Shown here piece after piece: positions 7,775 to 39,831 of a stretch of DNA of 44,174 nucleotides (the stretch's first letter is position 1; every line of letters starts with the position of its first letter). The notes under the pieces were generated by a model. It was not told where the DNA came from, ran no database searches, and worked only from the letters and a program-made list of their open reading frames with translations. Origin of the DNA: a virus. The stretch covers positions 1-44,174 of IMG/VR virus record IMGVR_UViG_3300020141_000432, one strand, 5' to 3'. The position numbers and the translations under genes are program-made.

Positions 7775-7949
7775 TGAGTTTTTAAATAAAAAAGATCCAG
7801 AATTTTCTAACCTAGAAGAAATAAGTGGCAGCAAGCCTTGCTTTAAATGTGAAGAGTTCTGCGATAGCTATTTTTGGAACTCATTTGATTTTACAATGAA
7901 CTGGAAATGCAAGAATGGTCATGCCAATCAAGTAAAGGTAAATGGATAA
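7761..7949 (+). CDS. Small zinc-ribbon-like protein (62 aa)
   Basis: Starts inside the RecA tail with RBS AGAAGGAAA and ends at a TAATG overlap. Cysteines CFKCEEFC and a later CKNGH make a CxxC/CxxxH-like metal site. Function unknown; possibly a nucleic-acid-binding zinc ribbon. Confidence 0.75.
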   Translation: MPNINEFLNKKDPEFSNLEEISGSKPCFKCEEFCDSYFWNSFDFTMNWKCKNGHANQVKVNG

Positions 7950-8719
7950 TGGAGAAGATTGTAATTGCTCCACAAATTGTTGTTTACAAAAACATACTAA
8001 AAGATGTTTCTGCTATCATTGATATGATTGATTCTGGCAATGAAGTCCAGTGGGAAAAATGGTATGAGAATGGCTCAAGGTCTTCGCTAGACTTTAATAG
8101 AGCAAGCGGAGAAGATTCGTCTCCCGCAAAAGATATTTGTGATGCATTTGATTATGTTGCTAAAGATTACATTGAAGAGTTCTCTGGAGAAAATGGCATA
8201 TGGCCATCATTCATAAAAAATTGGGAGAGCACAAATTTAAATAAAGATTACTATCAGATTGATTTTTTTAAATATAATCATTTGATGTTTAAAAACATGA
8301 AGTGGGAATCAGATTTATTGATGGGGTACCACGTAGACGAATTTGATGTAGACGGTGTATTTAAACAACATAAGAATATAGTAACAATAAACTTTTATCT
8401 CAATGATAATTATGAAGGTGGAGAGATATGCGCCTATAATAAGGATTTGGACATAAGCTATAGATACAAACCAACCGCTGGTGATGCAGTAGTAATGCCA
8501 TCGTCAAGCCCATTCTTTCATGCAGTAAAACCATTTTATTTAAATGATAGATATTTTTTAAGGTTATTCGTTACATACGATCAAGGTGAAGATCCTGTTA
8601 ATAATTATGGAGAGTTCTATTCTCAAGAACACCACGTAGGTCATGAAGGCGAAAAAGATTTTATAGATAAAGACTTTCAGTTTTTAAAGGTTAATGTTCA
8701 AGAGATAGAGGTTAAGTAA
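7949..8719 (+). CDS. 2-oxoglutarate/Fe(II)-dependent oxygenase
   Basis: A 256-residue double-stranded beta-helix oxygenase using Fe(II), O2 and 2-oxoglutarate to hydroxylate an unknown substrate. The facial triad is visible: H128-V-D130 in GYHVDEF and distal H191 in PFFHAV, with R201 or R205 as 2OG-binding candidate. The motif YLNDNYEGGEI is typical of prolyl-4-hydroxylase-like members and recurs in the oxygenase at 24152. Start ATG 7949 (TAATG overlap) is preferred to an earlier in-frame codon at 7907. It is one of four candidate non-heme oxygenases in the window. Confidence 0.9.
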   Translation: MEKIVIAPQIVVYKNILKDVSAIIDMIDSGNEVQWEKWYENGSRSSLDFNRASGEDSSPAKDICDAFDYVAKDYIEEFSGENGIWPSFIKNWESTNLNKDYYQIDFFKYNHLMFKNMKWESDLLMGYHVDEFDVDGVFKQHKNIVTINFYLNDNYEGGEICAYNKDLDISYRYKPTAGDAVVMPSSSPFFHAVKPFYLNDRYFLRLFVTYDQGEDPVNNYGEFYSQEHHVGHEGEKDFIDKDFQFLKVNVQEIEVK

Positions 8720-9024
8720 TGTCTGAAAGATCTGAAGTCAAAAGAGATGGGGCTAAAGCCCAAAAGAATTCTGGCAGAGGAGATTACCAAAAGGGTGACG
8801 CACAGTGGAAACAATTTTTAGTAGACTATAAAGAAGCAGGGACATCTTTTACTTTAAACAAAGACAACTGGGCAAAAATCTGTACAGATACATTTAAAGT
8901 AAATAGAAATATGCACCCAGCTTTAAAAATTATAATTGGCAGTGAGTCTAAAGTTAGACTTGGTATTATTGAGTGGTCCGTGTTAGAAGAGCTCATAGAA
9001 TTTTGGGAGGATAATAATGTATAA
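8719..9024 (+). CDS. Unknown protein (101 aa)
   Basis: TAATG overlap with the preceding oxygenase. The N terminus is basic and polar (MSERSEVKRDGAKAQK), followed by an amphipathic helical region and a C-terminal acidic end. No catalytic motif is seen. It could be a DNA-binding accessory, but nothing decides this. Confidence 0.7.
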   Translation: MSERSEVKRDGAKAQKNSGRGDYQKGDAQWKQFLVDYKEAGTSFTLNKDNWAKICTDTFKVNRNMHPALKIIIGSESKVRLGIIEWSVLEELIEFWEDNNV

Positions 9025-9739
9025 AGTTGATGTGTATAAGCAGGATGTTTCAAAGCCAAGCGCAGACTTGCAGCAACTTTCTGTAAAAAGAGACTGGTTC
9101 ACTCCAGCAACATATAACTGTTACCCTATGACATTTGTAAATACAATAGGATATGAAGTTTCATTTAATGAAGACATTCGGTTTGTATGGGATGGCGACG
9201 TAGCTATACCAGCAAGACCATTAAGTGGCGGGGAGTTTATCTGGGAAGGAAGAGGAGAAGGTACCGTAAGCCTTACAACAAATCTTATTTTTAAGACAGA
9301 TAAAGATGTAAGTTTTTGGACAATGCCAATACCAAATCATTTTGTTGAAGAGTTTGATGTTTTAAGTTCGGTAATATCAACCTCCTTTTGGACTGGGGAT
9401 ATAACAGTTGTTTTAAAGATAAAAAAGGAATATATAGGTAAAGAAATCTTAATCCCAGCTGGCAAACCAGTGGCATCCTTGATTCCAATTTCTGTTTCCC
9501 AATTTGACGGATCTATTTTAAACATGAAGGGAACTAAATTCCCATTCCCTCAAATACAAAATACTCAAGAGTATGTAGATGCATTGCACGACTACACAAA
9601 TGAAACTGGTAAAAGGCTAAAGCTTTATAAAAGAGGGCTAGACGAGAATGGGAATCACGTAGGAGAGCACGAGATAGATATCATTAATATGAATGTTATC
9701 TATGAAAATAATTTAGGAGATAAAGATGGCAGAGGATAA
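9017..9739 (+). CDS. DUF6065-like protein
   Basis: A 240-residue beta-rich protein. The segments RDWFTPATYNCYPMTFVNTI and EDIRFVWDGD match my memory of the DUF6065 family, found in phages and bacteria near 2OG oxygenases and SGNH proteins. RBS GGAGG is 6 nt before ATG 9017. It lies two genes after an oxygenase, fitting that association. Biochemical role unknown. Confidence 0.75.
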   Translation: MYKVDVYKQDVSKPSADLQQLSVKRDWFTPATYNCYPMTFVNTIGYEVSFNEDIRFVWDGDVAIPARPLSGGEFIWEGRGEGTVSLTTNLIFKTDKDVSFWTMPIPNHFVEEFDVLSSVISTSFWTGDITVVLKIKKEYIGKEILIPAGKPVASLIPISVSQFDGSILNMKGTKFPFPQIQNTQEYVDALHDYTNETGKRLKLYKRGLDENGNHVGEHEIDIINMNVIYENNLGDKDGRG

Positions 9740-17341: not shown

Positions 17342-17729
17342 AGAAGAAGTTTTTGAAAATAGAAGATTTTTATTTCAAAATATAGCTAAAACTTTTCCAA
17401 GTAACCCCTGGGTAATAAAGGCTACTGAAAAAATGAAGCAGTATTCAAAAGAAGAGTATTCTGATATGCTCAAAGAAGCATATGATTTCCAAGACAAGTT
17501 TGATTTAGCAATTGATTTAGGCATATCTGCAAAAACAAAAGAAGGACATGATCTATTTGTTTTATTTATCAGCCACATAAGATGGTTTTTTGAAATTAAT
17601 AGTGATTCGTATAACGAATTAATACAGCTGTGTAGCCCAAACGCTAACCAGTTTCTTATAGTTAATAAGTCTTATTCGGATTTATTATTTGATATACTTA
17701 TTGAGTATAGATCAGAGGTAGGGGTATGA
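17322..17729 (+). CDS. Unknown helical protein (135 aa)
   Basis: A helical protein beginning MTKLNFEEEVFENRRF, with no cysteines apart from one near residue 105 and no membrane segment. ATGA-type overlap with the reductase at 17726. Not recognised. Confidence 0.7.
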   Translation: MTKLNFEEEVFENRRFLFQNIAKTFPSNPWVIKATEKMKQYSKEEYSDMLKEAYDFQDKFDLAIDLGISAKTKEGHDLFVLFISHIRWFFEINSDSYNELIQLCSPNANQFLIVNKSYSDLLFDILIEYRSEVGV

Positions 17730-18694
17730 TGAAAGCAATCGTTGTTAAATCTTTTGGTGGGCCAGAGGTTATGGAGTATACAGATTATCGTGATCCAGTT
17801 CCTGTAAAAGACCAAGTCCTAGTGACTACAAGAATGATTGGTGTAAACTATGCAGATACTTATCAAACAGAAAATAGTTATTTAGTTCAAACACTCCCAC
17901 CAGTCATCCCTGGCATAGAGGCTTCATTTCTAGTAGACGGCAAGCTATTTGTTGGGCATACTGCAAGCGGAGCATATGCAGAAAAAGTTATTGTAAATAA
18001 AGACAGAATGTTTGAAGTGCCAGAGGGTGTTACGGAAGAAGAAGCTCTGTCTGTAATCTGCCAAGGAACTACTGCGTATGGCATCGTAAATGGTATATGC
18101 GATATAAAGCCTGGAGACCTGGTTCTTATTAATGGAGCTTCAAGTGCAGTTGGAATGATTCTAATACAGCTATGTAAGATCGTAGGAGCAACAGTAATAG
18201 GAGTAAGTGGGAATCAAGAAAAGATAGACTTTATAAAAACTTTAGGTGTTGATTTTGCTTGCTCTGATGATATTGCTGAAATAAGAAAAACAATAAGATC
18301 TATTGGTAAGCAGCCTAAGTTTATATTAGAGTCTTATGGCGGAAAATCATTTATAGATTACTACAGTATGCTAGAAACAGGGGGACACATTTGTTCCTAC
18401 GGGGCATCTTCTAGAGATGGCTTGCCAACAATCCAGTTGCGTGACTTATTAAAAGATACTAAAATAGTTTCTGGATTTTGGGGCACTAAGATATTCGGAG
18501 ATTCTAATAAGTTAAGTATGGCAGTTAATGACTTATTTAATTTAATTAAAGATAAAAAAATAAAGATATTTATTGGGGCTATTATGGATTTAAAAGATGC
18601 AAAAGAAATGCATGAAAAAATGAGAAATAGAGATACTGTCGGCAAATTAATATTAAAAAATAACACTGGATTGGATGTGGATCATGGACTTTAA
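17726..18694 (+). CDS. NADPH:quinone oxidoreductase-like enzyme (MDR superfamily)
   Basis: A 322-residue medium-chain dehydrogenase/reductase without the zinc-ligand set of alcohol dehydrogenases, so quinone-oxidoreductase-like. The N-terminal GroES-like catalytic domain is followed by a Rossmann motif NGASSAVGMILIQL near residue 135 (A-x-x-G-x-x-x-x-Q). It would reduce quinones or enones with NAD(P)H in the cytoplasm. Both ATGs at 17726 and 17729 are usable. It starts the modification-gene region; such a gene in a phage is unusual and its substrate is not evident. Confidence 0.9.
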   Translation: MMKAIVVKSFGGPEVMEYTDYRDPVPVKDQVLVTTRMIGVNYADTYQTENSYLVQTLPPVIPGIEASFLVDGKLFVGHTASGAYAEKVIVNKDRMFEVPEGVTEEEALSVICQGTTAYGIVNGICDIKPGDLVLINGASSAVGMILIQLCKIVGATVIGVSGNQEKIDFIKTLGVDFACSDDIAEIRKTIRSIGKQPKFILESYGGKSFIDYYSMLETGGHICSYGASSRDGLPTIQLRDLLKDTKIVSGFWGTKIFGDSNKLSMAVNDLFNLIKDKKIKIFIGAIMDLKDAKEMHEKMRNRDTVGKLILKNNTGLDVDHGL

Positions 18695-19523
18695 AATTAA
18701 AGATAACTTAATAGTAAAAAGATACTTTGGATATATGAACCCAAATACTGAAGAGTCTATACTTTTTTATGAAAAAGATTTAAGTATTAGTCCAGACGAA
18801 CATATTACATACAAATATAATAATGAAGGATTTAGATGCGATGACTTTACAAAAGAAAAGGATGGCATGCACATATTGTTTGGAGGCTGTTCAGAAACAG
18901 AGGGGGCGGCAAACAATCTAAAGGATGTGTGGGCTAATATTGTATATAATAAGATTAAAGAAACAGAAAAAGTAGCTGGGTATTATAACGTCGGGAAAGC
19001 AGGTCTTACTGTATCTGGTATTGTAATGAATGTATTTCAATATATGTATGACTACGGGTACCCAGACTATATATTCTTGCAGCTGCCAGATCAGGCAAGG
19101 TATGTAGATTGGTCAGAGGAGCATTCTTATCATCCAAAGTACCAAGTTCGTGGAGACGATATAGATAAATATGGGAAAGACGAATTTTTTAAAAACCATG
19201 ACAACCCAGCAGTTATGAAGATTAACATCCTGTATAATTATTTCTTATTAAAAAATTTAATTCAGGTATGCGAAACAAATAACGTAAAATTAATATGGTC
19301 AACCTGGTGTGGCCCAACTATTAAAAATTTAGCACCCGAGATTGGCAACCTAGATGGATATATAGATACAAGCACTTATACAAAAAACCACTGGGATATA
19401 AAAATAGAAGATCTTAGGGCAAGAGACGGATGGCATTTTGGGAAAGGCTTTCACAAGTTGTGGGCAAATAAATTTTATGAGGAGTTTTTGAATGATAAAA
19501 ATAATAAGAAGACTAATAGTTAA
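18684..19523 (+). CDS. SGNH-hydrolase-like protein, paralogue 3
   Basis: 279 residues. Block I is ILFGGCSETEGAANN (GCS in place of GDS, Ser near 62), followed by VWANIV, then a LQLPDQ region and a C-terminal DGWHFGKGFHKLWA that supplies DxxH. The GCS-x-T-x-G and VWANI signature is shared with the gene at 21794, so these two form a subfamily. ATG 18684 is preferred over 18675. The reaction is unknown; it may handle O-acyl groups on a glycan. Confidence 0.75.
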   Translation: MDFKIKDNLIVKRYFGYMNPNTEESILFYEKDLSISPDEHITYKYNNEGFRCDDFTKEKDGMHILFGGCSETEGAANNLKDVWANIVYNKIKETEKVAGYYNVGKAGLTVSGIVMNVFQYMYDYGYPDYIFLQLPDQARYVDWSEEHSYHPKYQVRGDDIDKYGKDEFFKNHDNPAVMKINILYNYFLLKNLIQVCETNNVKLIWSTWCGPTIKNLAPEIGNLDGYIDTSTYTKNHWDIKIEDLRARDGWHFGKGFHKLWANKFYEEFLNDKNNKKTNS

Positions 19524-19569
19524 AAGAAAAATAAAGCAAATGATGAAAAAGAATAGATACACCTACTGA
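19492..19569 (+). CDS. 25-residue highly basic peptide
   Basis: Frame MIKIIRRLIVKRKIKQMMKK plus NRYTY, starting inside the SGNH gene and ending at a TGATG overlap with the carbamoyltransferase. About 10 of 25 residues are Lys/Arg. A related peptide ending FTY occurs at 21694. The exact fit between genes supports translation or a coupling role. Confidence 0.5.
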   Translation: MIKIIRRLIVKRKIKQMMKKNRYTY

Positions 19570-21053
19570 TGATTATATTGGGCATAAATGAAACATCTCA
19601 TGATGCTTCAGTATCTATGATCAAAGATGGGGAGATCCTGTTCGCTGCCCACGCTGAAAGATATAGTAAGCAAAAGAATGATTGGTATAACAATAAAGAA
19701 ATTATTCTAGATGCATTAAATTATGGAACTCCTACTCATATTGCTTACTATGAAAAACCATATTTAAAAAAATCTAGACTAATGCTCAAGGGTGGGGCAA
19801 GTGATTGGAAGCCAAACCTACCTATGGACTTACCAGTAAAATATTTTAATCACCACTATTCTCATGCATGTGCGGGTTACTATACTAGCAGTTTTACAGA
19901 TGCGGCCATAGTAGTATTAGATGCAATAGGGGAATGGAACACTTCTACTATTTGGGTCGGAGAAGGTGAAAAGATTAAGCTTAAATATAAACAAAACTAT
20001 CCTGTAAGCTTTGGTTTGTTTTATTCTGCATTCACTAATCTAATAGGTCTAAAACCCAATCAAGAAGAATATATTATGATGGGTATGGCGGCATATGGAA
20101 ACCCAGATAGATATTTTAATCAAGTAAATGAGTATTTCCCTAGATATGATAGACAAAAATATAATTTTCATAAAGGAATAACAGACTTTAACTGGGGAAC
20201 AATCCCTTGCTTTGCTGGCTTCGAAGGGACTGGCTATCCAGCAGAGTGGTTTAAGCAAAGAGAATTCGATTTAGCTGCTGCAGTTCAAATGGTATATCAG
20301 CAAAGACTTAATGAATTTATGCATATGGCCTATTCGATTACAGGGAAAAGCAATTTAGTATTTATGGGAGGTTGTGCATTAAATTCATCTGCAAATACAT
20401 TGCTATGGAATATATTTAAAAATGTTTGGATAATGCCAAACCCAGGGGACGCTGGCTCATCTCTAGGCTCAGCCGCCGCTTTGTATGGCAAGCACATTGA
20501 GTGGAAGAACCCGTACCTCGGTCACGACTTGGGCGGTAAATATCCAGTACAGGAAATAGTAGATGGCATATTGAAAAACGGCATAGTCGCAGTAGCTTCA
20601 GGTAGAGCGGAATATGGGCCAAGGGCTTTGGGTAACAGGTCAATCTTGGCAGATCCTAGAGATCCATCTATAAAAGATAAGGTAAATTTAATAAAGCAAA
20701 GAGAACTATTTAGGCCATTTGCTCCTGTTGTTTTAGAAGATCATGCACATAAATGGTTTGATATGGAATTTACTAGTCCGTATATGCAGTACACTGTTAA
20801 ATGTCTACAGCCAGATAAAATACCTTCTGTAGTTCATGAAGACGGAACTTCAAGAGTTCAAACCATAAACAAGGAACAGCATTATGGTTTATACAGAGTT
20901 CTAAATAAATTTTACTTACAAACTGGAGTTCCTGTTTTATTAAATACTAGTTTGAATATTAAGGGACAGCCTCTTTTAAATGATTATGAAGATGTAAAAA
21001 AGTGGGAGTTAGAATATGGGTTTAAGATATTAACAGGAAACGAGAGTGTATGA
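19569..21053 (+). CDS. O-carbamoyltransferase (NodU/TobZ family)
   Basis: A 494-residue enzyme expected to transfer a carbamoyl group from carbamoyl phosphate, through carbamoyl-adenylate, to a sugar hydroxyl. The N-terminal Kae1-like domain shows GINETSHDAS (H11, D12), the metal motif HHYSH (95-99) and DAIGEWNTST. The C-terminal YrdC-like domain has GRAEYGPRALGNRS and FRPFAPVV. Both halves are complete, so it is probably active. Its neighbours are SGNH, sulfotransferase-like and glycosyltransferase genes, suggesting decoration of a glycan on the virion, cell surface or DNA. Confidence 0.92.
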   Translation: MIILGINETSHDASVSMIKDGEILFAAHAERYSKQKNDWYNNKEIILDALNYGTPTHIAYYEKPYLKKSRLMLKGGASDWKPNLPMDLPVKYFNHHYSHACAGYYTSSFTDAAIVVLDAIGEWNTSTIWVGEGEKIKLKYKQNYPVSFGLFYSAFTNLIGLKPNQEEYIMMGMAAYGNPDRYFNQVNEYFPRYDRQKYNFHKGITDFNWGTIPCFAGFEGTGYPAEWFKQREFDLAAAVQMVYQQRLNEFMHMAYSITGKSNLVFMGGCALNSSANTLLWNIFKNVWIMPNPGDAGSSLGSAAALYGKHIEWKNPYLGHDLGGKYPVQEIVDGILKNGIVAVASGRAEYGPRALGNRSILADPRDPSIKDKVNLIKQRELFRPFAPVVLEDHAHKWFDMEFTSPYMQYTVKCLQPDKIPSVVHEDGTSRVQTINKEQHYGLYRVLNKFYLQTGVPVLLNTSLNIKGQPLLNDYEDVKKWELEYGFKILTGNESV

Positions 21054-21679
21054 CAGTAATAGATTTGCGTAAAGAAATTACTATAAATTCCCCAGCTGGC
21101 TCGGGAAACATGTTTTGTCAATTTTTGATGGAAGAAAATTTTCATATGAGATTAAGATGGGTAAACCATAATCCAGATCTTTTTGACAAAAATGGTATAA
21201 ATATATTCATATTAAGAAACCCATACGACTGCGTAGCATCTGGAGTTGAAGTTGGATTTTATGATATGAACAAAGATCAAAAAAAATATGCTGAAAAAGA
21301 TATAGATTTTTTTATTAATGAATCAATCGCTGCTCAGGTAGACACGTATAATTTATTTTTAAAGTCCGCACAAGGAAAAGAATACATAACCCCTGTGGGA
21401 TTTAGGCTATTAACAGAGCAGCCAGACATCTTTTTAGATAAAGTGTCTAAAAAATTTGATTTGCCTTTTAAAGATAATAGAGTAAGCGCAGAAGATGTTA
21501 AGGTAAAAATGAAATCTGTACCTAATATTGGAATTAGGCTTCCTAGAGAATCCACATCGTTTCGTGCACAAATAAATAAAGCAATAAAAGAGTATCCTCC
21601 AATAAAGATTTGCTATAATAAATATGTTGAATATAAAAAAAGCATAGATTTACATTTTGAAGATCTATTGGAGGGCTGA
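21050..21679 (+). CDS. Sulfotransferase-like P-loop protein
   Basis: 209 residues. The 5'-phosphosulfate-type loop ITINSPAGSGNMF lies at residues 10-22 and a 3'-phosphate-binding-type segment IFILRNPYDCVASG near 52-65. This layout is that of PAPS-dependent sulfotransferases, though the loop is degenerate (SGN in place of SGT). ATGA overlap with the carbamoyltransferase indicates coupled synthesis. It could sulfate a phage or host glycan; a kinase that could make PAPS is at 11760. Confidence 0.7.
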   Translation: MTVIDLRKEITINSPAGSGNMFCQFLMEENFHMRLRWVNHNPDLFDKNGINIFILRNPYDCVASGVEVGFYDMNKDQKKYAEKDIDFFINESIAAQVDTYNLFLKSAQGKEYITPVGFRLLTEQPDIFLDKVSKKFDLPFKDNRVSAEDVKVKMKSVPNIGIRLPRESTSFRAQINKAIKEYPPIKICYNKYVEYKKSIDLHFEDLLEG

Positions 21680-21793: not shown

Positions 21794-22696
21794 ATGACAC
21801 AAAGATACAGATTTGATTTAGAGAATCCTGAAACTAAAATTTTTCTTTTTAATGATTTTCAAGGATGGGCTAAACCTCATAACGACATAATACCAATAGA
21901 TTACAATTATAATAAATTTAAATATCGTTCACCTGAATTTAATGAAAATGCTGAAATTATGTTTTTGGGATGCTCAAATACAATGGGTGATGGGATGCTA
22001 GAAGAATTTATGTGGGCAAACATTCTTGCAAAAAAAATGAATTCATCCTATTCAAATTTAAGCCTTAGTGGAGACTCTATCCCAGGGCAAGTAATGAAGG
22101 CCTTTAATTACTTTAGACACTTTGGTAACCCTAAAATAATAGTTGGCCTATTTCCTTTATACAGGCTTCCAATCCCATCATATATGGGAAATAATCGCAC
22201 TAGATCACAACAAGGATTAAAGCATACTTCAATCATACAAAGTTGTAATTTAACAATTAGTGAAAGTAAAAAGTATTTAAAAGCTCCTTTTGATCCCGAA
22301 GAAGCCTTATCTCCCGAGGTTGCAATTTTTTACGGACATTCTTTTATACAGATGCTTGATCAGTATTGTAGATCAAACAATATAATATTTATATGGAGCG
22401 TCTGGGAAGAATACAATAACATATACAACCATTATAAATATTTTAATGAAGATTTTTATAAAAATTATTTAGATTTAAGTACAAATAGATGGAAATTTAA
22501 TCAGAGTACATTAAGTGATATTAGTCCTACAAATTCTTTTGAATGCCATTTAGAGTATAAAGAACATATACTATTTGATGCGGCAGCGGATAGAATTGAC
22601 GACTACCCGCATTGGGGAATTCACAGAAACATCCATGTTGCTGAAGAATTTTACGAAGAGATAAAGTTAAAAAAATATCATTTAGAAAATGATTGA
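21794..22696 (+). CDS. SGNH-hydrolase-like protein, paralogue 4
   Basis: 300 residues. Block I MFLGCSNTMGDGMLEEF (GCS-x-T-x-G) followed by MWANILA pairs it with the gene at 18684; SLSGDSIPGQVM and the C-terminal YPHWGIHRNIH give the G and D/H regions. There is a WSVWEEY segment like the WSTWCG of paralogue 3. Its stop codon overlaps the -35 of the tRNA promoter. Confidence 0.73.
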   Translation: MTQRYRFDLENPETKIFLFNDFQGWAKPHNDIIPIDYNYNKFKYRSPEFNENAEIMFLGCSNTMGDGMLEEFMWANILAKKMNSSYSNLSLSGDSIPGQVMKAFNYFRHFGNPKIIVGLFPLYRLPIPSYMGNNRTRSQQGLKHTSIIQSCNLTISESKKYLKAPFDPEEALSPEVAIFYGHSFIQMLDQYCRSNNIIFIWSVWEEYNNIYNHYKYFNEDFYKNYLDLSTNRWKFNQSTLSDISPTNSFECHLEYKEHILFDAAADRIDDYPHWGIHRNIHVAEEFYEEIKLKKYHLEND

Positions 22697-22731: not shown

Positions 22732-22805
22732 GTGCCAGTAGCTTAGTTGGTTAAAGCCCCGAACTCATAATTCGGTAATCGTAGGTTCAAGTCCTACCTG
22801 GCACA
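22732..22805 (+). tRNA. tRNA with CAT anticodon (Met, or Ile2 if lysidinylated)
   Basis: Acceptor GTGCCAG pairs with CTGGCAC (22798-22804), discriminator A. Anticodon stem CCGAA/TTCGG encloses loop CTCATAA. T-arm GTAGG-TTCAAGT-CCTAC. No encoded CCA. A tRNA-Ile(TAT) for AUA at 42541 makes Met the likelier identity here. Confidence 0.93.
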
Positions 22806-22806
22806 C

Positions 22807-22878
22807 ACCTCCATAGCTCAGTGGAAGAGCAACAGGTTTCTACCCTGTGTGTCGGGAGTTCGAATCTCTCTGGGGGTA
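22807..22878 (+). tRNA. tRNA-Arg(TCT)
   Basis: Acceptor ACCTCCA pairs with TGGGGGT with one wobble. Anticodon stem ACAGG/CCTGT holds loop TTTCTAC (anticodon 22839-22841). T-arm GGGAG-TTCGAAT-CTCTC. Reads AGA, frequent in this AT-rich genome. Confidence 0.93.
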
Positions 22879-22882
22879 CCAG

Positions 22883-22955
22883 GCCCGTATAGCCCAGCGG
22901 TAGAGGCAGTAGACTTAAAATTTACACAGCGTTGGTTCGAATCCAACTACGGGTA
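22883..22955 (+). tRNA. tRNA-Leu(TAA) with a short variable loop
   Basis: Acceptor GCCCGTA pairs with TACGGGT. Stem GTAGA/TTTAC holds loop CTTAAAA, so the anticodon is TAA (reads UUA). T-arm GTTGG-TTCGAAT-CCAAC. The variable region is only ACAGC (5 nt), while bacterial tRNA-Leu normally has a long class II variable arm; the D-stem has a C-A mismatch. The gene is certain, its charging is not. Confidence 0.85.
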
Positions 22956-22956
22956 C

Positions 22957-23029
22957 GTTCCTATAGCTCAGTTGGTAGAGCAGCAGACTTTTAATCTGCG
23001 GGTCGATGGTTCGAGACCATCTGGGGACA
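22957..23029 (+). tRNA. tRNA-Lys(TTT)
   Basis: Acceptor GTTCCTA with TGGGGAC (wobbles). Stem GCAGA/TCTGC holds loop CTTTTAA. T-arm GATGG-TTCGAGA-CCATC. Reads AAA/AAG. One base separates it from the previous tRNA. Confidence 0.93.
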
Positions 23030-23033
23030 CTAG

Positions 23034-23106
23034 TGGGGATTAGCTCAGCTGGCAGAGCGGGAAACTGTTAATTTCTAGGTCGCAGGTTCGAGCCCTGCAT
23101 CCCCAG
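23034..23106 (+). tRNA. tRNA-Asn(GTT)
   Basis: Acceptor TGGGGAT pairs fully with ATCCCCA, discriminator G. Anticodon stem GGAAA/TTTCT holds loop CTGTTAA. T-arm GCAGG-TTCGAGC-CCTGC. Last of five tRNAs transcribed together. Confidence 0.93.
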
Positions 23107-23118
23107 CAAAAAGAAAGG

Positions 23119-23130: not shown

Positions 23131-24090
23131 ATGAGTAATAAAATTTTAGTAGCTATTGTAAGTGCTAATGAAAAAGATTTAAAGCAAACAGTTGAAAGTG
23201 CTATAGAAAATTCTGATAGTCCAGACAACTTGTCTTTTGTTATATTTGACTCACGACTAAATGATTTCCCTAAAGCTGACTTTACAGATTTTAAAAATGT
23301 TTTTTATATGAATATGGAATTTAGTGGTACCCAGGGAGTTGGATTAGCTAGACTTATTGCCTCATCTATAGTTATGCCAGATACGGATTATGTTCTGCAG
23401 TTAGATTCTCATATGATATTTGTCAAGGGCTGGGATTCTAAATTAATAAAAAGCTTTAGTATTCTTGAAGCGGTAGCGGACAAGCCAATCATAAGCTCAA
23501 GAGCACCAGCCTGGCACTACGATAAAGACGGTGAAATTGTATACCCAAGCACCTCAAGTCTTGTGCAAAAGTTAATATTTAAAGACTCAAAAGTTTCTAC
23601 ATTTGAAGACGGATACCCTACTATAGAAGGAGTGCCCCATTCTAACGAAGATTATATAGAACATAATTTAATATCTGCTCAGTTCACATTTAGCCGACCT
23701 GATCTGTATTCTGAAATTCTGCACGACCCTAGGATTGTTTGGGGTGGCGATGAGCCAATATATTCTTTACGTGCATGGTCTAGGGGATATAGAATGTTTT
23801 CTATTAAAGAAGATATATGCTTTCATTATAACAAGCAAACAACAAAAGGCGCATTTGAAAAAGATAATAAAGATGACTGGAGAAGCTTAAAGAATAATGA
23901 CCCTAGGCTTTTCCCTTTTTATATTAAAAGATACAGCGATGGTAAAAAGATTATGAGAGACATACTGCTAGGCGAGTACATAGGGTACTGGGGAGCACCA
24001 TCATTAGAAAAATTAAAAGAGTTTGAACTGGCATGTGGCATTAATTTTCAAGAATTCTACAGCATTATAGATAATAAATATAAATTATGA
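23131..24090 (+). CDS. GlcNAc-transferase-like glycosyltransferase (PF11397 / GT60-like)
   Basis: A 319-residue GT-A-fold enzyme. It opens ILVAIVSANEKDL and has the metal/nucleotide-binding segment YVLQLDSHMIFVKGWD (D92-S-H94). The acceptor-side block VWGGDEPIYSLRAWSRGYRMF near 207-227 is followed by CFHYN. The LDSH, WGGDE and RAWxxGY blocks match the GlcNAc-transferase family that glycosylates hydroxyproline of Skp1 in eukaryotes, with bacterial and viral relatives. It would transfer GlcNAc or a similar sugar to a hydroxylated acceptor in the cytoplasm. A prolyl-hydroxylase-like oxygenase is the next large gene. It starts leaderless right after the tRNAs. Confidence 0.85.
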   Translation: MSNKILVAIVSANEKDLKQTVESAIENSDSPDNLSFVIFDSRLNDFPKADFTDFKNVFYMNMEFSGTQGVGLARLIASSIVMPDTDYVLQLDSHMIFVKGWDSKLIKSFSILEAVADKPIISSRAPAWHYDKDGEIVYPSTSSLVQKLIFKDSKVSTFEDGYPTIEGVPHSNEDYIEHNLISAQFTFSRPDLYSEILHDPRIVWGGDEPIYSLRAWSRGYRMFSIKEDICFHYNKQTTKGAFEKDNKDDWRSLKNNDPRLFPFYIKRYSDGKKIMRDILLGEYIGYWGAPSLEKLKEFELACGINFQEFYSIIDNKYKL

Positions 24091-24170
24091 TATACTATAC
24101 AAAGGCCATCTTTACTTGCTGGCGCATTACCGTATTATTAATTGGAGCATCATGTCTGAAATTACATTAA
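24087..24170 (+). CDS. Possible 27-residue peptide overlapping the 2OG oxygenase start
   Basis: ATGA overlap with the glycosyltransferase stop opens a frame (MIYYTKAIFTCW then a hydrophobic stretch) ending 19 nt inside the next gene. It could couple translation of the two genes. A TATACT at 24090-24095 offers the alternative that this is simply a 5' leader. Confidence 0.35.
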   Translation: MIYYTKAIFTCWRITVLLIGASCLKLH

Positions 24171-24733
24171 GACACAATGGTATATTTCAATGGAGTTCTG
24201 TTTCAGAAAACCCTGAAAATCTTTTGTCATCAGTATTAAACCAAAAGTGGGACGATTATACTAATGAGGGTGGCGGAGAAACAGTAATTGGTAGATGCAC
24301 TTATCTAACTAAAAATCAAAAAGAGTACAAATACATACTTGATGTTTATATAAAATGCTTAGAGGATTATGCTTTAGAAAACTCCTTAGATCTAAGCTAC
24401 AAAAATTTAGATTCACAAGCTTGGCTATTCAGAGAGTATTTGCCAGGAACTACTATGTCTGCACACATAGACGGGTACGGATATGCAAAAGATAATGGGG
24501 AGTTTGTTGTACCAGAGCTGACAATTTTATTTTATATCAACGATAATTACAATGGCGGCGAGATTGTTTTCCCAGAAGAAAATATATCAATCAAGCCAAA
24601 AGCAAATTCTGTTATTATATTCCCAAGTAACAAAGTGCATGCTGTCTCAGAAGTACTGGATGGTAAAAGGTATATGACGCAAACATATATCTATAAAGGT
24701 CACTACGACAAGTATGATTCGGTATTCAATTAA
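24152..24733 (+). CDS. Prolyl-4-hydroxylase-like 2OG/Fe(II) oxygenase
   Basis: 193 residues. Iron triad H105-I-D107 (SAHIDGYG) and H163 (NKVHAVS), with R173 as the 2OG carboxylate partner. The YINDNYNGGEI block is shared with the oxygenase at 7949 and with prolyl hydroxylases (the GG-E-x-x-F turn). ATG 24152 with RBS TTGGAGC is chosen. Position next to a PF11397-type glycosyltransferase suggests they act in series on one protein: hydroxylate, then glycosylate. Confidence 0.88.
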   Translation: MSEITLRHNGIFQWSSVSENPENLLSSVLNQKWDDYTNEGGGETVIGRCTYLTKNQKEYKYILDVYIKCLEDYALENSLDLSYKNLDSQAWLFREYLPGTTMSAHIDGYGYAKDNGEFVVPELTILFYINDNYNGGEIVFPEENISIKPKANSVIIFPSNKVHAVSEVLDGKRYMTQTYIYKGHYDKYDSVFN

Positions 24734-24741: not shown

Positions 24742-25491
24742 ATGGCAAATATATTAATTCTAGGTGACTCTCACGCAACTAAATTAGGATATATATCCGA
24801 GGATTGGTTTAGAGCTAACACTAAGTCTGAAAAAATAGTAACAGGTAATTCTCATTTCCATAGTCAAATAAAAGATGAAAATAATTATACTGTTTTTATG
24901 AAAGATACTCTTGTTTCATATGAAAATGATACATCAAAAATGTTTTTCTCAGGACATTCTGGGAGGTCTGCCTATAGCTATGATTTTGTTAATTTTGCAA
25001 GTGGTACACAAAGAGACATTCTAGAAAAATGGGATGTAGAGGGTAACATTTTTATTCCATGGCTGGGATACATTGACTGTAGAAATCATTTGCCCAACAA
25101 AGATTTGCCAAACTATGCCACTCCAAAAGATGTAGTTAAGCAATACATAAAAAATGTTACTGATAACTTTAAAAATTGTAAAATTGTATTTATGGAGCCA
25201 GTTCCTCAGTTTATAACAATTGTTACCAGCGACTGGAGATTTCCTCACTTAGATCCAAACTTTGATTTTGAATTAAGGCATGAAGAGTACTTAGAGTTCA
25301 TCAAAGAGCTTAGAATCCAGTGTGCTGAAAATGGTTTGCCTGAACCGATCAATACAAGTGAGATACTAGGGACAGACATGATAGAGTCTTGGATGCAGCC
25401 CAAGAAACCTATTAACAGGTTTTTAAATGATCACATGTCTCAAGAGCACTATAAAAAAATACTAGCACATATTCATAATGTGTTTAAATAA
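24742..25491 (+). CDS. SGNH-hydrolase-like protein, paralogue 5
   Basis: 249 residues. Block I ANILILGDSHATKLGY carries a canonical GDS; FFSGHSGRSAYSY follows; IPWLGYIDCRNH sits at the third-block position and PVPQFITI is the strand before the last block. The C-terminal NDHMSQEHY supplies D/H residues. It is not closely similar to the other four, more like a general GDSL acetyl-hydrolase. No signal peptide. Confidence 0.75.
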   Translation: MANILILGDSHATKLGYISEDWFRANTKSEKIVTGNSHFHSQIKDENNYTVFMKDTLVSYENDTSKMFFSGHSGRSAYSYDFVNFASGTQRDILEKWDVEGNIFIPWLGYIDCRNHLPNKDLPNYATPKDVVKQYIKNVTDNFKNCKIVFMEPVPQFITIVTSDWRFPHLDPNFDFELRHEEYLEFIKELRIQCAENGLPEPINTSEILGTDMIESWMQPKKPINRFLNDHMSQEHYKKILAHIHNVFK

Positions 25492-26736: not shown

Positions 26737-28848
26737 TTGACTAGAAAGTTAAGAATATTTACAGCCTTCCTGCTCTCAGTAGGTTGGCTTTTTGCTGTTC
26801 CAACTGAAGCTCGTGCAGCAGAAGGATTAACTGCTCAAGTCTATAATGTGCTTGGACAAAACAATGCTCCATACATACCTCAAGGAGCCTCTCCAGTAGT
26901 AACTACAAACGTACCTAACATTGACTTCCAGTGGGGTAGCGGTAGCGTCTTAGGTGGGCCTTCAGAGGATGTTATCGTACGATTTACAGGATCGATTAGA
27001 AGCGATTCTACTCAGAATATATCATTTTTAGCAACAGCAGACGATGGTACAAGACTATATATTGGTGGAGTATTAGTAGCAGATGACTGGTTTGACAAGG
27101 GTGGTGGAGGAACTACAACTGATCCAATATCCTTTACAGCAGGAGTTCCAAAAACCATAGAATTAATGTATTATGAAAATGGCGGGGGAGCAAATGTATT
27201 CCTTCGTTGGGATCAGTCTGGATCTATGGGTATTATTCCAGCATCAGCCTTTACTTCTCAAGCAGCCCCAGTAGTAAAAACAATAGGCCCTCCAAGAAAT
27301 CTAACTATATCTAGCAATGAGACATCAACTGTACTATCCTGGCAAGCACCAGATACTGGTAACACACAGCCAGAAAGATATGCAATAAGTTTTAATTGCT
27401 CTGGTTGTAATGGCTGGGGAATTGCAACTGGTAATGTTGGCGGACCAAATTCTTTAAATACAACAATTACAATTGATCATTCTTTGCTCAATGGACTTAT
27501 GCCAGCAGGAACTGTGTGGTCATTCCATATCAGATCAGATAATGATACATTTTCTCTTTACTCTGAAAATTCAAATGTTGTTACTGGATCTACATATGTA
27601 GCACCCGCTCCAGAGCCTTCCCCTACTCCGACTCCCAGCCCATCCGAAACAACAACTGTAACAACGCCGACACCAGAAACAACAACTGTAACAACGCCGA
27701 CACCAGAAACAACAACTGTAACAACGCCGACAGTCCCAACAGGACCAGTTACGGTTGTGCCTTCTGGACCAACAGAGGCAGAGATTGCAGCACAGGTAGC
27801 TGCACAAGCAGCAGCACAGCAAGCTGAAGCAGCAAGAATACAGGCTGAGGCAGCAGCATTAATTGCACAACAAGCAGCAGCAGCCCAAGCAGAAGCAGAA
27901 AGAATTGCAGCTCTTCAAGCAGCTCAAGAAGCAGAGAGAGCTAAAGCAGAAGCAGAAGCAAAGGCAGAGGCTGAACGTGTAGAAGCGGAGATTGAAGCAG
28001 CAAGAATTCAAGCAGAGATAGAAGCCCAAGAAGAAGCAGATCGCATTGCAGCAGAGGTTAAAGCAGCAGAAGAAAAAGCAGAAGCAGAGGCCAAGGCAGA
28101 GGCTGATCGTATAGAAGCAGAGCGTATAGCGGAAGAAGAAAGAGCCATTGCAGAAGCAGAAGCAGAGGCTGAGCGTATAGCAGCAGAAGAAGAAGCCATT
28201 GCAGAGGCAAAGGCCAAGGCAGAGGCTGAAGCACTTGCAGAAGAAGAAAGAATTGCAAAAGAAACAGAGGAAAAAGAATTAGAAGAAGCATTGGCTGAAG
28301 AAGAAGCAGAACAAGAAGAATTAAAAGAAATACTTGAAGATGCTAAAGACGGTAAAGAATTAACTGAAGAACAAAAGGATATAGTTGTTGCAGCATTAAT
28401 AGAAACCTTGGCCCCAGGAGAATCAATTTCTGTAGCAGAGGTTGTAGCAGCAGGAGTTGAACTTAAAGACTTACCAGCAGATACTCCAATTGAAGTTAGA
28501 ACATCGGAGTCTGGTGAAGTTTTAGTTATTACTGCAGAAGTTGCAGCAAATATTGAATTAGTTACAGACCCAGGAGCTTTATTAGAAGCAGCATTTACAG
28601 ACCCAGGAGCAGCACTAGCAGCTCTTGGGAGCATTGGTGCAGATATGACACCAGGAGAAAGAGAAGAAGCGACTGAGATGGTTGTCGCAACAGTTGTGGC
28701 GGCAGGCGCAGCAATAAATGCAGCAAGTGCAGCAACAGGTTCCACTGGAGGATCTACAGGAGGCTCAAGCTCAGGCGGGGGCAACTCTGGAGGATCAGGT
28801 GGAGGACCCTCTGGTGAATCCAAGGGAACAAGAAGGAGAACCCCATGA
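26737..28848 (+). CDS. Large secreted PA14-domain protein with coiled coil
   Basis: 703 residues. Signal peptide 1-28 (FTAFLLSVGWLFAV, cleavage after EARAA). PA14 domain about 31-150 (ISFLATADDGTRLYIGG, MYYENGGGANVFLRW), a carbohydrate-binding fold. Fibronectin-III-like region about 180-285. Thr/Pro linker with three near-identical TTTVTTPTPE repeats. Ala/Glu-rich coiled coil about 345-525, then a globular part, and a Gly/Ser tail ending GTRRRTP. TTG start with AGGAG 7 nt upstream. It is cotranscribed with holin/endolysin genes. Likely an extracellular or envelope-spanning adhesin; a virion fibre would not normally carry a signal peptide. Confidence 0.85.
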   Translation: MTRKLRIFTAFLLSVGWLFAVPTEARAAEGLTAQVYNVLGQNNAPYIPQGASPVVTTNVPNIDFQWGSGSVLGGPSEDVIVRFTGSIRSDSTQNISFLATADDGTRLYIGGVLVADDWFDKGGGGTTTDPISFTAGVPKTIELMYYENGGGANVFLRWDQSGSMGIIPASAFTSQAAPVVKTIGPPRNLTISSNETSTVLSWQAPDTGNTQPERYAISFNCSGCNGWGIATGNVGGPNSLNTTITIDHSLLNGLMPAGTVWSFHIRSDNDTFSLYSENSNVVTGSTYVAPAPEPSPTPTPSPSETTTVTTPTPETTTVTTPTPETTTVTTPTVPTGPVTVVPSGPTEAEIAAQVAAQAAAQQAEAARIQAEAAALIAQQAAAAQAEAERIAALQAAQEAERAKAEAEAKAEAERVEAEIEAARIQAEIEAQEEADRIAAEVKAAEEKAEAEAKAEADRIEAERIAEEERAIAEAEAEAERIAAEEEAIAEAKAKAEAEALAEEERIAKETEEKELEEALAEEEAEQEELKEILEDAKDGKELTEEQKDIVVAALIETLAPGESISVAEVVAAGVELKDLPADTPIEVRTSESGEVLVITAEVAANIELVTDPGALLEAAFTDPGAALAALGSIGADMTPGEREEATEMVVATVVAAGAAINAASAATGSTGGSTGGSSSGGGNSGGSGGGPSGESKGTRRRTP
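27646..27735 (+). repeat. 30-bp in-frame tandem repeat (x3)
   Basis: The unit GAAACAACAACTGTAACAAC (30 bp in full) occurs three times almost perfectly, encoding TTTVTTPTPE-type linker repeats of the PA14 protein. Copy-number change would alter linker length without a frameshift. Confidence 0.8.
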
Positions 28849-35533: not shown

Positions 35534-36274
35534 ATGAAGTTTCATTATATGTCTTTGCTGGAAGATAATTCAAGAGAAGGACTTATAAACATAGCAAATA
35601 CAGTGCATGATGTGGGATATGAATCTCTGCTGTTGGTCTATGATTCTTTTTTAGACAATGTTGTAGTAAATGTAGCAAATACAATTAACCCAGAACATAC
35701 ATTTAAATACATAATTGCAATAAGAACATACTCAGTATCCCCTGAGTATCTGGCCCAGGTGTATGAGACATTTGAAAAAATATCCCCAGGACGTGTAACA
35801 TTTAATATAATACCTGGCAATATCAAGCCCTACGAAACTAGCGTTAATGATGTTGTTTTTATTGAAGATAAAATTGACACAAAAGAAAAATTAAATGATT
35901 ATACTCTGGAGTGGCTTAAAAAATATAAAAAATTATCAGTAAGGAAAAAGCTACCACCCCTTATGCTATCTGGTCAAACTATTGATTTCCAAAAATATTG
36001 TATAGAAAATGGGATTATTAATATAATTAAAGTAAATGATTTTTTAAATCAGTACGGTAGCAATTTATTAAGTAATAAGAATCAAATTGTTTCTACTCCA
36101 ATATATGGGGATAGTGATTCTGTCAAAAGCTTAATGTTAGACTTAGAGTCAAAAGGTGTATCAGATGTCCTGGTATATTATACACAAGACAACAAAAATG
36201 CATCTGAGATCCATAATATTATTAAATACTTATTCCCTGAATCTTTACACAGACCAAAAGAAATGATAGAATAG
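35534..36274 (+). CDS. Luciferase-like flavin monooxygenase family protein
   Basis: 246 residues. The block FKYIIAIRTYSVSPEYLAQVYETFEKISPGRVTFNIIPGN (residues about 55-96) matches the conserved core of the bacterial-luciferase-like family: an R-x-x-x-x-SP, then Q, then S-x-GR, then N-x-x-x-G. These TIM-barrel enzymes oxidise a substrate with reduced FMN and O2. It is short (family about 300-350 residues), so it may be a divergent or reduced member. It begins the oxidative-enzyme region. Confidence 0.8.
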   Translation: MKFHYMSLLEDNSREGLINIANTVHDVGYESLLLVYDSFLDNVVVNVANTINPEHTFKYIIAIRTYSVSPEYLAQVYETFEKISPGRVTFNIIPGNIKPYETSVNDVVFIEDKIDTKEKLNDYTLEWLKKYKKLSVRKKLPPLMLSGQTIDFQKYCIENGIINIIKVNDFLNQYGSNLLSNKNQIVSTPIYGDSDSVKSLMLDLESKGVSDVLVYYTQDNKNASEIHNIIKYLFPESLHRPKEMIE

Positions 36275-36278
36275 GGTT

Positions 36279-36428
36279 ATGGATAGCATTGAAAAATATT
36301 TAGATGGTAGTCATAGAAAAAAAATTGCAGATGAAATAAGATATTTAGAGTTGCCTCCAGAGTGGAGACCACACGAAGTAATTAAATATATAGTTAGGAT
36401 AATAGAAAAAAATAATGGAATCAACTAA
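36279..36428 (+). CDS. Small helical protein (49 aa)
   Basis: MDSIEKYLDGSHRKKIADEI is followed by an LPPEWRPHEVI segment and a basic helix. Starts 4 nt after the luciferase-like gene and overlaps the DUF2061 copy. Not recognised. Confidence 0.65.
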   Translation: MDSIEKYLDGSHRKKIADEIRYLELPPEWRPHEVIKYIVRIIEKNNGIN

Positions 36429-36615
36429 AAGAACACTATTAAAAACAGCTAGCTGGGAAACCTTTCACCTTATTGGAGTGGCTGGAGTAATATATTTATT
36501 TACTGGTGAGTGGGAGTACGCAAGCCTTGGAGCGCTACTTTATATAGGCTGGGAAGCCCTAGGATACTTTTTACATGAAAGAGTATGGGTAAAGTTTGGT
36601 AAGGGAATTGAATAA
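36415..36615 (+). CDS. DUF2061-like membrane protein, copy 2
   Basis: 66 residues: KRTLLKTASWETFHLIG, two hydrophobic segments, and YFLHERVWVKFG, the same plan as the protein at 12567 (LKAITWR ... YYFHERGW). The copies are diverged, so this is an old duplication or separate acquisition. Confidence 0.8.
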   Translation: MESTKRTLLKTASWETFHLIGVAGVIYLFTGEWEYASLGALLYIGWEALGYFLHERVWVKFGKGIE

Positions 36616-36755
36616 TGGGAAAACATCTAGATAAAATGCAAAGAGCTTTAGCTCAAAGACAAGCAGCAACTTATGCTAGCGGCCAGAAGAAGCCTGGGTC
36701 AATGAATATTAAAAAGACAGGCTACAGAGGCCAGAAAGCAAAGGGATCTAAGTAG
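36615..36755 (+). CDS. Small basic protein (46 aa)
   Basis: TAATG overlap with the DUF2061 gene. About 13 Lys/Arg among 46 residues, rich in Gln/Gly (RGQKAKGSK end). It looks like an RNA- or DNA-binding, ribosomal-protein-like tail. Ends in a TAGTG overlap with the next gene. Confidence 0.65.
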   Translation: MGKHLDKMQRALAQRQAATYASGQKKPGSMNIKKTGYRGQKAKGSK

Positions 36756-36877
36756 TGTTTGGTGAATTATGTGAGTGGGGCGGATGCAGTAATAAGTCTA
36801 CTAGGATAGCTTCCAAGCCAGAGGGTGGAATAATAGATATTTGCGATGTATGCTGGCACAAGAACTACAGATCCTAA
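36755..36877 (+). CDS. Small zinc-ribbon protein (40 aa)
   Basis: GTG start in a TAGTG overlap. C6 and C11 (CEWGGC) pair with C30 and C33 (CDVC) followed by H35, a four-ligand zinc knuckle. Function unknown. Confidence 0.65.
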   Translation: MFGELCEWGGCSNKSTRIASKPEGGIIDICDVCWHKNYRS

Positions 36878-36886
36878 TCAACTAAA

Positions 36887-36895
36887 TGCTATAAT
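36887..36895 (+). promoter_or_regulatory. Extended -10 promoter before the micro-gene operon
   Basis: TGCTATAAT (TATAAT 36890-36895) within CTAAATGCTATAAT, identical over 14 nt to the hsp20 promoter. TAATCAACTA (36875-36884) is just upstream. Confidence 0.78.
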
Positions 36896-36902
36896 AGTCT
36901 TA

Positions 36903-36926
36903 TAAGCGGAATACTAGTCCCGCTTA
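36903..36926 (+). promoter_or_regulatory. 5'-UTR hairpin of the micro-gene operon
   Basis: TAAGCGG pairs with CCGCTTA around loop AATACTAGTC (one C unpaired). It starts at the predicted transcript 5' end and is followed by RBS TAGGAG at 36940, as in the hsp20 and endolysin leaders. Confidence 0.6.
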
Positions 36927-36952
36927 AATAAATAACCTATAGGAGCAATAAC

Positions 36953-37105
36953 ATGTCAGACGGAAAAGATTTAAACGGATTTACATCACCAAAGGTAAAT
37001 GATTCAACAGTTTGGGGAAACAACGAGCAGTATGCAGCTGATCCAAAGTCAGCATTCCCATCAACAGATGTTTCAAACCAAGCGCAGGCTCAAGGCCCTA
37101 AGTAA
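36953..37105 (+). CDS. Small hydrophilic protein (50 aa)
   Basis: MSDGKDLNGFTSPKVNDSTV..., polar, low in charge clusters, ending AQAQGPK, with no cysteine. It has a strong promoter, leader hairpin and RBS (AGGAGC 8 nt before the ATG), so it is probably abundant; a minor virion or scaffold-like component is possible. Confidence 0.7.
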   Translation: MSDGKDLNGFTSPKVNDSTVWGNNEQYAADPKSAFPSTDVSNQAQAQGPK

Positions 37106-37106
37106 T

Positions 37107-37199
37107 ATGTGCGTAGAGTGTGGATGCCAAACTGTTGGCAGCGAAACTGGAATTAAAGAAGTTAATATCCAGGACGTTTCAGATCAGGGTAATAGATAA
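37107..37199 (+). CDS. Micropeptide with HypB-like CxxCGC N terminus (30 aa)
   Basis: Begins MCVECGCQTVGS. C2, C5 and C7 reproduce the N-terminal CxxCGC nickel-binding motif of E. coli-type HypB, here with no GTPase attached. The rest is short and acidic (KEVNIQDVSDQ). It starts 1 nt after the previous stop and overlaps the next gene (TAATG). Metal binding is an inference from the motif. Confidence 0.65.
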   Translation: MCVECGCQTVGSETGIKEVNIQDVSDQGNR

Positions 37200-37306
37200 T
37201 GTGTAAAGATTGTTCATGCGGTGCAGATCAAGAAATTCAAAATGAATCTTCTGAATCACCAGCTAATAATAATGTTGTAACTATCTCACAAATTAAGGGA
37301 GCATAG
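37199..37306 (+). CDS. Second CxxCxC micropeptide (35 aa)
   Basis: Begins MCKDCSCGADQ, the same spacing of C2, C5 and C7 as its upstream neighbour, then a Glu/Ser/Asn-rich tail ending TISQIKGA. TAATG and TAGTG overlaps on both sides. Tandem occurrence of this rare N-terminal motif supports both peptides being expressed. Confidence 0.65.
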   Translation: MCKDCSCGADQEIQNESSESPANNNVVTISQIKGA

Positions 37307-37488
37307 TGTCAGAAAATGTTGTAAACTCTGGAGAGGCAACTAAAAAGAATCCTTCTCAGGGTAAATTTAAATCTGGCATACAGGCTAAAAGACCACCAAT
37401 GAGGGTTGATGTTAATAAGCATGGCATAAGAAGAGAGACCCCAACGGGTCCATCTGCGCCTAGAAAAACTGGAAGAAAAAAAGTTTAA
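37306..37488 (+). CDS. Small basic disordered protein (60 aa)
   Basis: GTG start in a TAGTG overlap. Rich in Lys, Arg, Pro, Gly (QAKRPPMRVDVNKHG ... PRKTGRKKV). Likely disordered and nucleic-acid binding. Not recognised. Confidence 0.65.
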   Translation: MSENVVNSGEATKKNPSQGKFKSGIQAKRPPMRVDVNKHGIRRETPTGPSAPRKTGRKKV

Positions 37489-37497
37489 TTACTTAAA

Positions 37498-37593
37498 ATG
37501 TGCCAGTCAAGAACAAGCTCAAGTGATTTAGCTATAGATATATCTAAAACAATTGATGATAGCGTTGATGCAGTAGAAGCCCTACCTTTTTAA
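37498..37593 (+). CDS. Micropeptide (31 aa)
   Basis: MCQSRTSSSDLAIDISKTID... ends in DAVEALPF. Single N-terminal cysteine after Met, then a helical acidic part. No RBS is obvious (ACTTAAA), so translation is less certain. It lies 16 nt before the SDR gene. Confidence 0.45.
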   Translation: MCQSRTSSSDLAIDISKTIDDSVDAVEALPF

Positions 37594-37609
37594 ATATTAA
37601 GGACATAAG

Positions 37610-39829: not shown

Positions 39830-39831
39830 AT

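Follow-up and report, generated by a model that had tools for sequence, protein, structure and literature searches.

The closest described counterparts of the genes analyzed here include protist enzymes. The GT60 polypeptide α-GlcNAc transferases, such as the Skp1 GlcNAc transferase of Dictyostelium and the mucin GlcNAc transferase of T. cruzi, belong to a family that initiates mucin-type glycosylation in protists as well as the hydroxyproline (Hyp)-linked glycan of Skp1, the Dictyostelium enzyme using Hyp as its acceptor (PMC8724618). GT60 enzymes are in turn related to the GT27 mucin-type polypeptide GalNAc-transferases (PMC8724618). In the Skp1 pathway the GlcNAc transferase is paired with the prolyl hydroxylase PhyA. 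Related oxygenases include vCPH of PBCV-1 and the bacterial P4H and PKHD enzymes. Among phages, transferases of actinobacteriophages, for example Maravista, have been suggested to glycosylate the capsid protein (PMC11256854).

The locus compared with these systems lies in a 44-kb virus record with a GC content of 37%, analyzed over its whole length and called the window below. The source phage is freshwater-type. Its terminase shares about 63% identity with the one from Streptomyces phage Gilson, whose genome measures 128 kb, and the window is therefore probably a fragment. Two intact genes on the same strand, 61 nt apart, encode a PF11397 glycosyltransferase (GT) and a 2-oxoglutarate (2OG)-Fe(II) oxygenase (Table 1). 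Five tRNA genes directly upstream of the GT gene separate the pair from a module of further enzymes; an open reading frame at 22849-23043 overlaps the tRNA cluster and was rejected as a gene. The window resembles the Skp1 pathway in pairing a P4H-like 2OG enzyme with a PF11397 transferase, the two genes being neighbors. It differs in that the pair is not fixed in close relatives and in that the oxygenase on its own is nearest to PKHD hydroxylases. No Skp1 domain was found among the window proteins scanned with Pfam, the window being a fragment, and no later enzymes of the pathway were identified. The likeness to the actinobacteriophage transferases is one of proposed role, as both are phage-encoded and proposed to modify virion proteins, but the window GT is accompanied by a 2OG oxygenase and a carbamoyltransferase.

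Table 1. Features of the window discussed in the text.
Feature	Coordinates	Strand	Remarks
Second PF13640 oxygenase of the window phage	7907..8719	+	Pfam E 1.8e-10
DUF6065 protein	9017..9739	+	PF19541 E 4.8e-11; present in G001, G005, G007
Zinc-type (MDR) dehydrogenase	17726..18694	+	PF00107 E 7.7e-19; 74-83% identical homologues in L002-L006
SGNH-like protein (GCSxTEG ... DGxHxG, motif read by eye)	18675..19523	+	No Pfam match; 53-69% identical in L002-L006
NodU/NolO/TobZ-type carbamoyltransferase	19569..21053	+	PF16861 E 8e-53; PF02543 E 2.8e-40; PHROG 1601 E 1.5e-104
Sulfotransferase-like protein (weak)	21050..21679	+	PF13469 E 0.025, below cut-off
SGNH-like paralogue of 18675-19523	21794..22696	+	24% identical to the 18675 product, E 1.6e-10
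Five tRNA genes (Met, Arg, Leu, Lys, Asn)	22732..23107	+	ARAGORN; directly upstream of GT, between upstream module and pair
PF11397 (GT60-type) glycosyltransferase	23131..24090	+	319 aa, ATG start; Pfam E 8.8e-25
P4H/PKHD-like 2OG-Fe(II) oxygenase	24152..24733	+	193 aa from ATG; PF13640 E 1.9e-12
SGNH-like protein downstream of the pair	24742..25491	+	GDSH near start, D-H near end; PF19040 E 0.076, below cut-off
PA14/fn3 protein, putative candidate substrate	26737..28848	+	PF07691 E 9.1e-8, weak fn3 match; N-terminal signal peptide by eye
Mucin-like stretch PEPSPTPTPSPSE(TTTVTTPTPE)n...PSGP	27610..27771	+	Within the 26737-28848 product

The first-pass annotation had assigned the first gene to PF11397 from its LDSH, WGGDE and RAWxxGY blocks and had read the next large gene as a P4H-like oxygenase from H105, D107 and H163, and both assignments stand. 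The PF11397 match of the GT spans residues 48-267 and scores 88.3 bits against a curated cut-off of 21, with L-D-S-H at 91-94, W-G-G-D-E at 204-208 and R-A-W-S-R-G-Y at 214-220. All 12 columns invariant among 37 relatives, which were selected partly on a QxDSH...WD motif, are kept, including R74, Q90-x-D92-S93-H94, F97, W101-D102, G206 and E208. The sequence found no match among solved structures, either singly or as a profile. The AlphaFold model (pLDDT 88) has polypeptide GalNAc-transferases as its best PDB folds, the top match reaching E 7.6e-12 with a TM-score of 0.59 by query length, and the leading folds include the mucin-type enzymes GalNAc-T2, PGANT9B, GalNAc-T12 and Toxoplasma GalNAc-T3. 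This agrees with the kinship of GT60 and GT27 (PMC8724618). By family and predicted fold, the GT probably attaches a sugar to protein. The protist GT60 enzymes thus share the Pfam family and a GT27-related fold with the window GT (PMC8724618), and Thr-rich neighbors in the window and in other viral loci resemble mucin-type targets; the window GT differs in being a phage gene, likened to the protist enzymes through the family HMM and the fold.

The PF13640 match of the oxygenase scores 48 bits against a cut-off of 27, and an alternative TTG start at 24116, 36 nt upstream of the ATG, is also open. The active-site residues are intact, with the metal triad H105-x-D107 and H163 and the 2OG-binding basic residue R173. 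Structure prediction gives a pLDDT of 88 here too, with PKHD hydroxylases as the nearest PDB folds, followed by prolyl 4-hydroxylases that include the Dictyostelium PHD, a further likeness to the Skp1 pathway. By sequence alone PKHD is the top match and P4H weaker, while a profile of 29 relatives places P4H structures on top. P4H-like is a fair label for the enzyme; that it adds a hydroxyl to proline is probable from sequence and model, and it is in that sense that we infer a prolyl hydroxylase. The double-stranded β-helix and the metal and 2OG residues are those of vCPH and of bacterial P4H and PKHD enzymes, but identity to these is about 14-24% and the phage relatives occur in tandem arrays beside PPFF-repeat tail-type proteins. 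Within the window, 2OG-type matches lie at 7907, 24152 and 39832, the last one weak, and the 7907-8719 oxygenase has homologues in G001 and G005 (73-74%) and in G007 (46%). Redox genes of the window include one for a cytochrome P450, and a cupin/JmjC-like protein is encoded as well. A cluster at 35534-41647 contains luciferase-like, SDR, cytochrome P450 (PF00067 E 9.1e-60), weak 2OG and JmjC/cupin-like genes, and L343 carries a gene set resembling it.

The most probable reading of the locus, at a probability of roughly one half, is a single phage module in which the GT and the oxygenase hydroxylate and glycosylate low-complexity surface proteins of the phage itself. What supports it is the family membership of the two enzymes, their intact active sites and predicted folds, and the genomic context. 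We infer activities, sugar, order of steps and substrate as follows. The GT would be a polypeptide O-HexNAc transferase, probably for GlcNAc, of the PF11397/GT60 kind, and the oxygenase a prolyl-hydroxylase-like 2OG enzyme, and both would act on low-complexity parts of proteins that the phage exports or builds into its virion. The sugar would be placed on Thr or Ser, or on Hyp that the oxygenase has produced, and it may be decorated by the NolO-type carbamoyltransferase, which is conserved. The best candidate substrate in the window would be the Thr/Pro-rich stalk of the PA14/fn3 protein, a putative virion or exported protein.

A possible alternative is that the two genes are unrelated neighbors in a variable accessory region, the GT glycosylating a Thr-rich protein alone and the oxygenase having a separate target. 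Conservation of the gene neighborhood had been named beforehand as the evidence that could speak against the pairing, and in part it does. Relatives of the GT were found in seven viral contigs (63-89% identity). A P4H gene directly follows the GT in none of the seven, the sequence of L006 ending at that point, and the window pair is therefore not a fixed operon in its own lineage. Of the nearest relatives, the four whose sequence continues past the GT (L002-L005) have an oxygenase beside it in 0/4; the gene in that place is an SGNH paralogue in L002 and L003 and a kinase/nucleotidyltransferase homologue in L004 and L005. In close relatives without the adjacency the GT is still 78-89% identical. 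The oxygenase is patchy while the GT is constant, and the gene after the GT varies by lineage. PPFF repeats and mucin-like repeats, moreover, go with different gene sets. Against unrelated neighbors, L073 and L074 have the order GT, Hsp20, P4H homologue (43% identical to the window oxygenase), placing the oxygenase two genes from the GT, and adjacency and even fusion recur in distant genomes. A PF13640 match at E 0.01 is present in all eight GT contigs, window included, and above the cut-off in 7/8; such genes are common in these phages. In L074 the GT frame has no ATG, GTG or TTG start before residue 21 of the window protein (L074 8001-8037).

The recurrence was surveyed in loci whose genes were called mechanically by script, using HMMs built for this analysis and checked against Pfam for chosen members; counts from the motif and sequence scans are samples among the matches listed. 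A DNA motif scan for QxDSHxxFxxxWD yielded at least 120 viral and at least 119 bacterial loci, and all 239 listed contain a PF11397-like ORF by our HMM; searches by close peptide patterns confirmed no bacterial relatives. A 2OG ORF, again by our HMM, directly adjoins PF11397 in 20 of these 239 motif-selected loci among the matches listed (5 viral, 15 bacterial). Within the listed loci oxygenases are enriched next to the GT, with p 0.017 for viruses and p 6.6e-8 for bacteria, the latter value being inflated by kinship among SAR86 genomes. The state "oxygenase adjacent or fused" requires a minimum of 8 changes on the GT tree, and "within three genes" a minimum of 13. Given the 20/239 adjacencies among the matches listed and the at least 8 changes, the PF11397-2OG pair is not a product of chance. 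It is nevertheless a minority pattern viewed from either gene: 111 of the 120 viral PF11397 loci among the matches listed have no oxygenase, and PF11397 occurs in 0/58 listed viral loci picked for relatives of the oxygenase.

Some of the bacterial cases are closely knit. In an Alphaproteobacteria MAG (L261 3-6299, minus strand) a single ORF combines an AhpC/TSA domain with PF11397 repeats and carries, at its C-terminus, a PF13640 domain in which the residues are intact. In two Rhizobiales MAGs (L221 5070-7998 and L238 655-3566) the order is PF13640, PF11397, PF23452, with O-FucT-like and PqqD-like pieces nearby; PF23452 is the HPAT, or hydroxyproline O-arabinosyltransferase, family (E 8.7e-14 in L221 and 3.8e-14 in L238), and these clusters possibly encode a pathway for hydroxyproline-glycosylated peptides. 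In L136/L188 and L162 a 2OG gene adjoins a PF11397/O-FucT fusion, together with carbamoyltransferase-like genes. The fusion and the clusters support a functional link between the two families, short of proof for the window pair. The oxygenases of L257, L272, L279 and L284 pass our HMM, but this lineage is weak, since L284, the sole one tested, has no Pfam match. In L487 a PF11397-like gene (981-1808) precedes two 2OG genes, and the carbamoyltransferase there shares 71% identity with that of the window; the locus was rejected as support for the pairing because its GT has lost the DSH block. Fimbrial-type and, by eye, T6SS TssA-like genes adjoin PF11397 in about a dozen bacterial loci besides L207, L225, L226 and L229, and in loci of the L300 type PF11397 adjoins TPS-domain secreted proteins. 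A literature search limited to the open literature found no description of a PF11397-oxygenase pair in phages or bacteria.

The neighbors of PF11397 suggest what the GT may act on. The PA14/fn3 protein is the only window protein to pass a filter for mucin-like composition, with one Thr/Pro-rich stretch, PEPSPTPTPSPSETTTVTTPTPE, as the candidate acceptor peptide. A P/S/T/E-rich stretch is present in its homologues in L002/L003 and L073/L074 and lacking in L005, which keeps the GT. Among the matches listed, stretches rich in Thr, Ser and Pro lie near PF11397 in 36/120 viral loci against 1/58 control loci (Fisher 2.3e-6), the controls having been chosen for relatives of the oxygenase and possibly representing other genome regions. 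In the listed viral loci mucin-like proteins are also more frequent among genes directly next to the GT (20/176) than further away (39/720; p 0.007). Oxygenases and mucin-like proteins do not coincide in these loci: among the matches listed, mucin-like proteins accompany the viral GT in 1/9 loci with an oxygenase and 36/111 without. The reverse test, from viral loci selected for (TP)n, found PF11397 in only 3/95 of the loci listed, which is not significant. G001 and G007 encode a 990/1212-aa fn3-or-similar protein with poly-Thr tracts, and two small genes separate it from a second PF11397 gene downstream. In L346 (5800-10331) and L352 (3483-8672), relatives of the window phage, large proteins with poly-Thr tracts have a second PF11397 gene in their vicinity.

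The oxygenases keep different company. Searches with the window and L074 oxygenases yielded at least 76 further viral loci; 54 of the 76 listed contain three or more 2OG ORFs, and 50 of the 76 contain DUF6065 genes. The HxD...H...R/K pattern is present in 338/351 array ORFs. A protein with PPFF/PPGFF repeats occurs in 32/54 loci with at least three oxygenases against 0/22 others (Fisher 3.2e-7, an optimistic value as several loci are near copies), and in none of the 239 listed PF11397 loci or of 115 new (TP)n loci. The repeat proteins tested have fn3 domains, and a Peptidase_S74 domain is encoded either by their own gene or by the one after it, an arrangement that tail fibres and spikes also show. 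In L474 and the related L475, L478 and L524 PF11397 directly precedes the 2OG array, and in L474 and L478 the gene for the repeat protein lies upstream. An (APPGFF)n protein and a 2OG array are also encoded by G007, which has a GT closely related to that of the window. In other phages, members of the DUF6065 family are often found with PF11397 on one side and 2OG genes on the other. Tandem 2OG arrays with DUF6065 beside PPFF/PPGFF tail-type proteins can be seen at L468 5404-11359, L474 3668-9667, L478 3577-9476, L341 12086-17062 and about 30 more loci; no description of PPFF tail proteins with oxygenases was found in a search limited to the open literature. Phage surface proteins of two classes, Thr/Pro-rich and proline-rich (PPFF/PPGFF), are thus likely targets. 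A broader proposal, which we regard as tentative, is that aquatic phages practise a chemistry in the style of an extracellular matrix: arrays of five to ten 2OG oxygenases with DUF6065 would hydroxylate prolines of PPFF/PPGFF tail proteins, PF11397 enzymes would cap Hyp or Thr with HexNAc, partly carbamoylated, and the window pair would be a reduced form.

The first-pass annotation had gone further in likening the pair to the Skp1 pathway. Under this scenario, a special case of the module reading that overlaps with it in confidence, the oxygenase would make 4-hydroxyproline at a defined site and the adjacent GT would cap the same hydroxyl with GlcNAc. Hydroxylation followed by capping of the same proline is plausible when the recurrent adjacency in several unrelated lineages, the L261 fusion and the HPAT-family gene in the L221/L238 clusters are set against the lost adjacency in the lineage of the window; the use of Hyp by the Dictyostelium GT60 enzyme (PMC8724618) and the single block of PPGFF-repeat protein, PF11397 and 2OG array in L474 and L478 also favor it. 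As a strict account of the window it is doubtful. Adjacency is gone in the closest relatives in spite of a well conserved GT, most PF11397 genes in the listed loci have no oxygenase nearby and vice versa, and the mucin-like association suggests Thr as acceptor. A fixed two-step pathway is disfavored because adjacency is lost in close relatives, pairing is rare from either side and each enzyme goes with a different type of repeat. It is most economical to assume a common module that serves low-complexity surface proteins and in which the sugar acceptor is Thr or Hyp.

The genes upstream of the pair raise an alternative that is unlikely, in which the target of the GT, the carbamoyltransferase, the SGNH proteins and the dehydrogenase is a small molecule or a glycan on the host surface, remodeled for example to exclude other phages. 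MDR dehydrogenase, SGNH protein and carbamoyltransferase genes precede the GT in this order in every relative whose sequence extends over the region, the carbamoyltransferase being 74-83% identical in L002-L006 and present too in L073/L074, and carbamoyltransferases of the NodU/TobZ type act on sugars or small molecules. However, the best folds of the GT are protein-directed transferases, and among the neighbors of PF11397 are Thr/Pro-rich proteins in phages and, on the bacterial side, a fimbrial protein as well as a secreted protein with a TPS domain. The sulfotransferase-like gene has homologues only in L002, L003 and L006 among the relatives. The SGNH gene downstream of the pair had been put forward as a third component, a role that its homologues do not bear out, as they lie at other positions in L004, L005 and L073/L074. 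DNA base modification, with TET-like oxidation followed by glycosylation, is very improbable and was rejected, as the Tet_JBP match of the oxygenase is weak (E 0.0098) and PF13640 far better, the GT fold is polypeptide-transferase-like, and no DNA methyltransferase or hydroxymethyl-base gene was seen among the window proteins scanned.

Returning to the module acting on surface proteins, the link that the first-pass annotation drew is real as far as the two gene families are concerned, and the pair most likely modifies phage proteins, as far as sequence and models can tell. PF11397/GT60 enzymes, though described for protists (reviewed in PMC8724618), are common in viral contigs and bacterial genomes, and their context points to mucin-like and PPFF-repeat phage proteins as candidate acceptors and to 2OG oxygenases as candidate partners. 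This context suggests a possible role for many phage 2OG oxygenases of unknown function. Glycoproteins of the hydroxyproline or mucin type would, if this reading is true, be products of phages, with consequences for the stability of virions, for their adsorption and for ideas on how protein O-glycosylation arose in eukaryotes.
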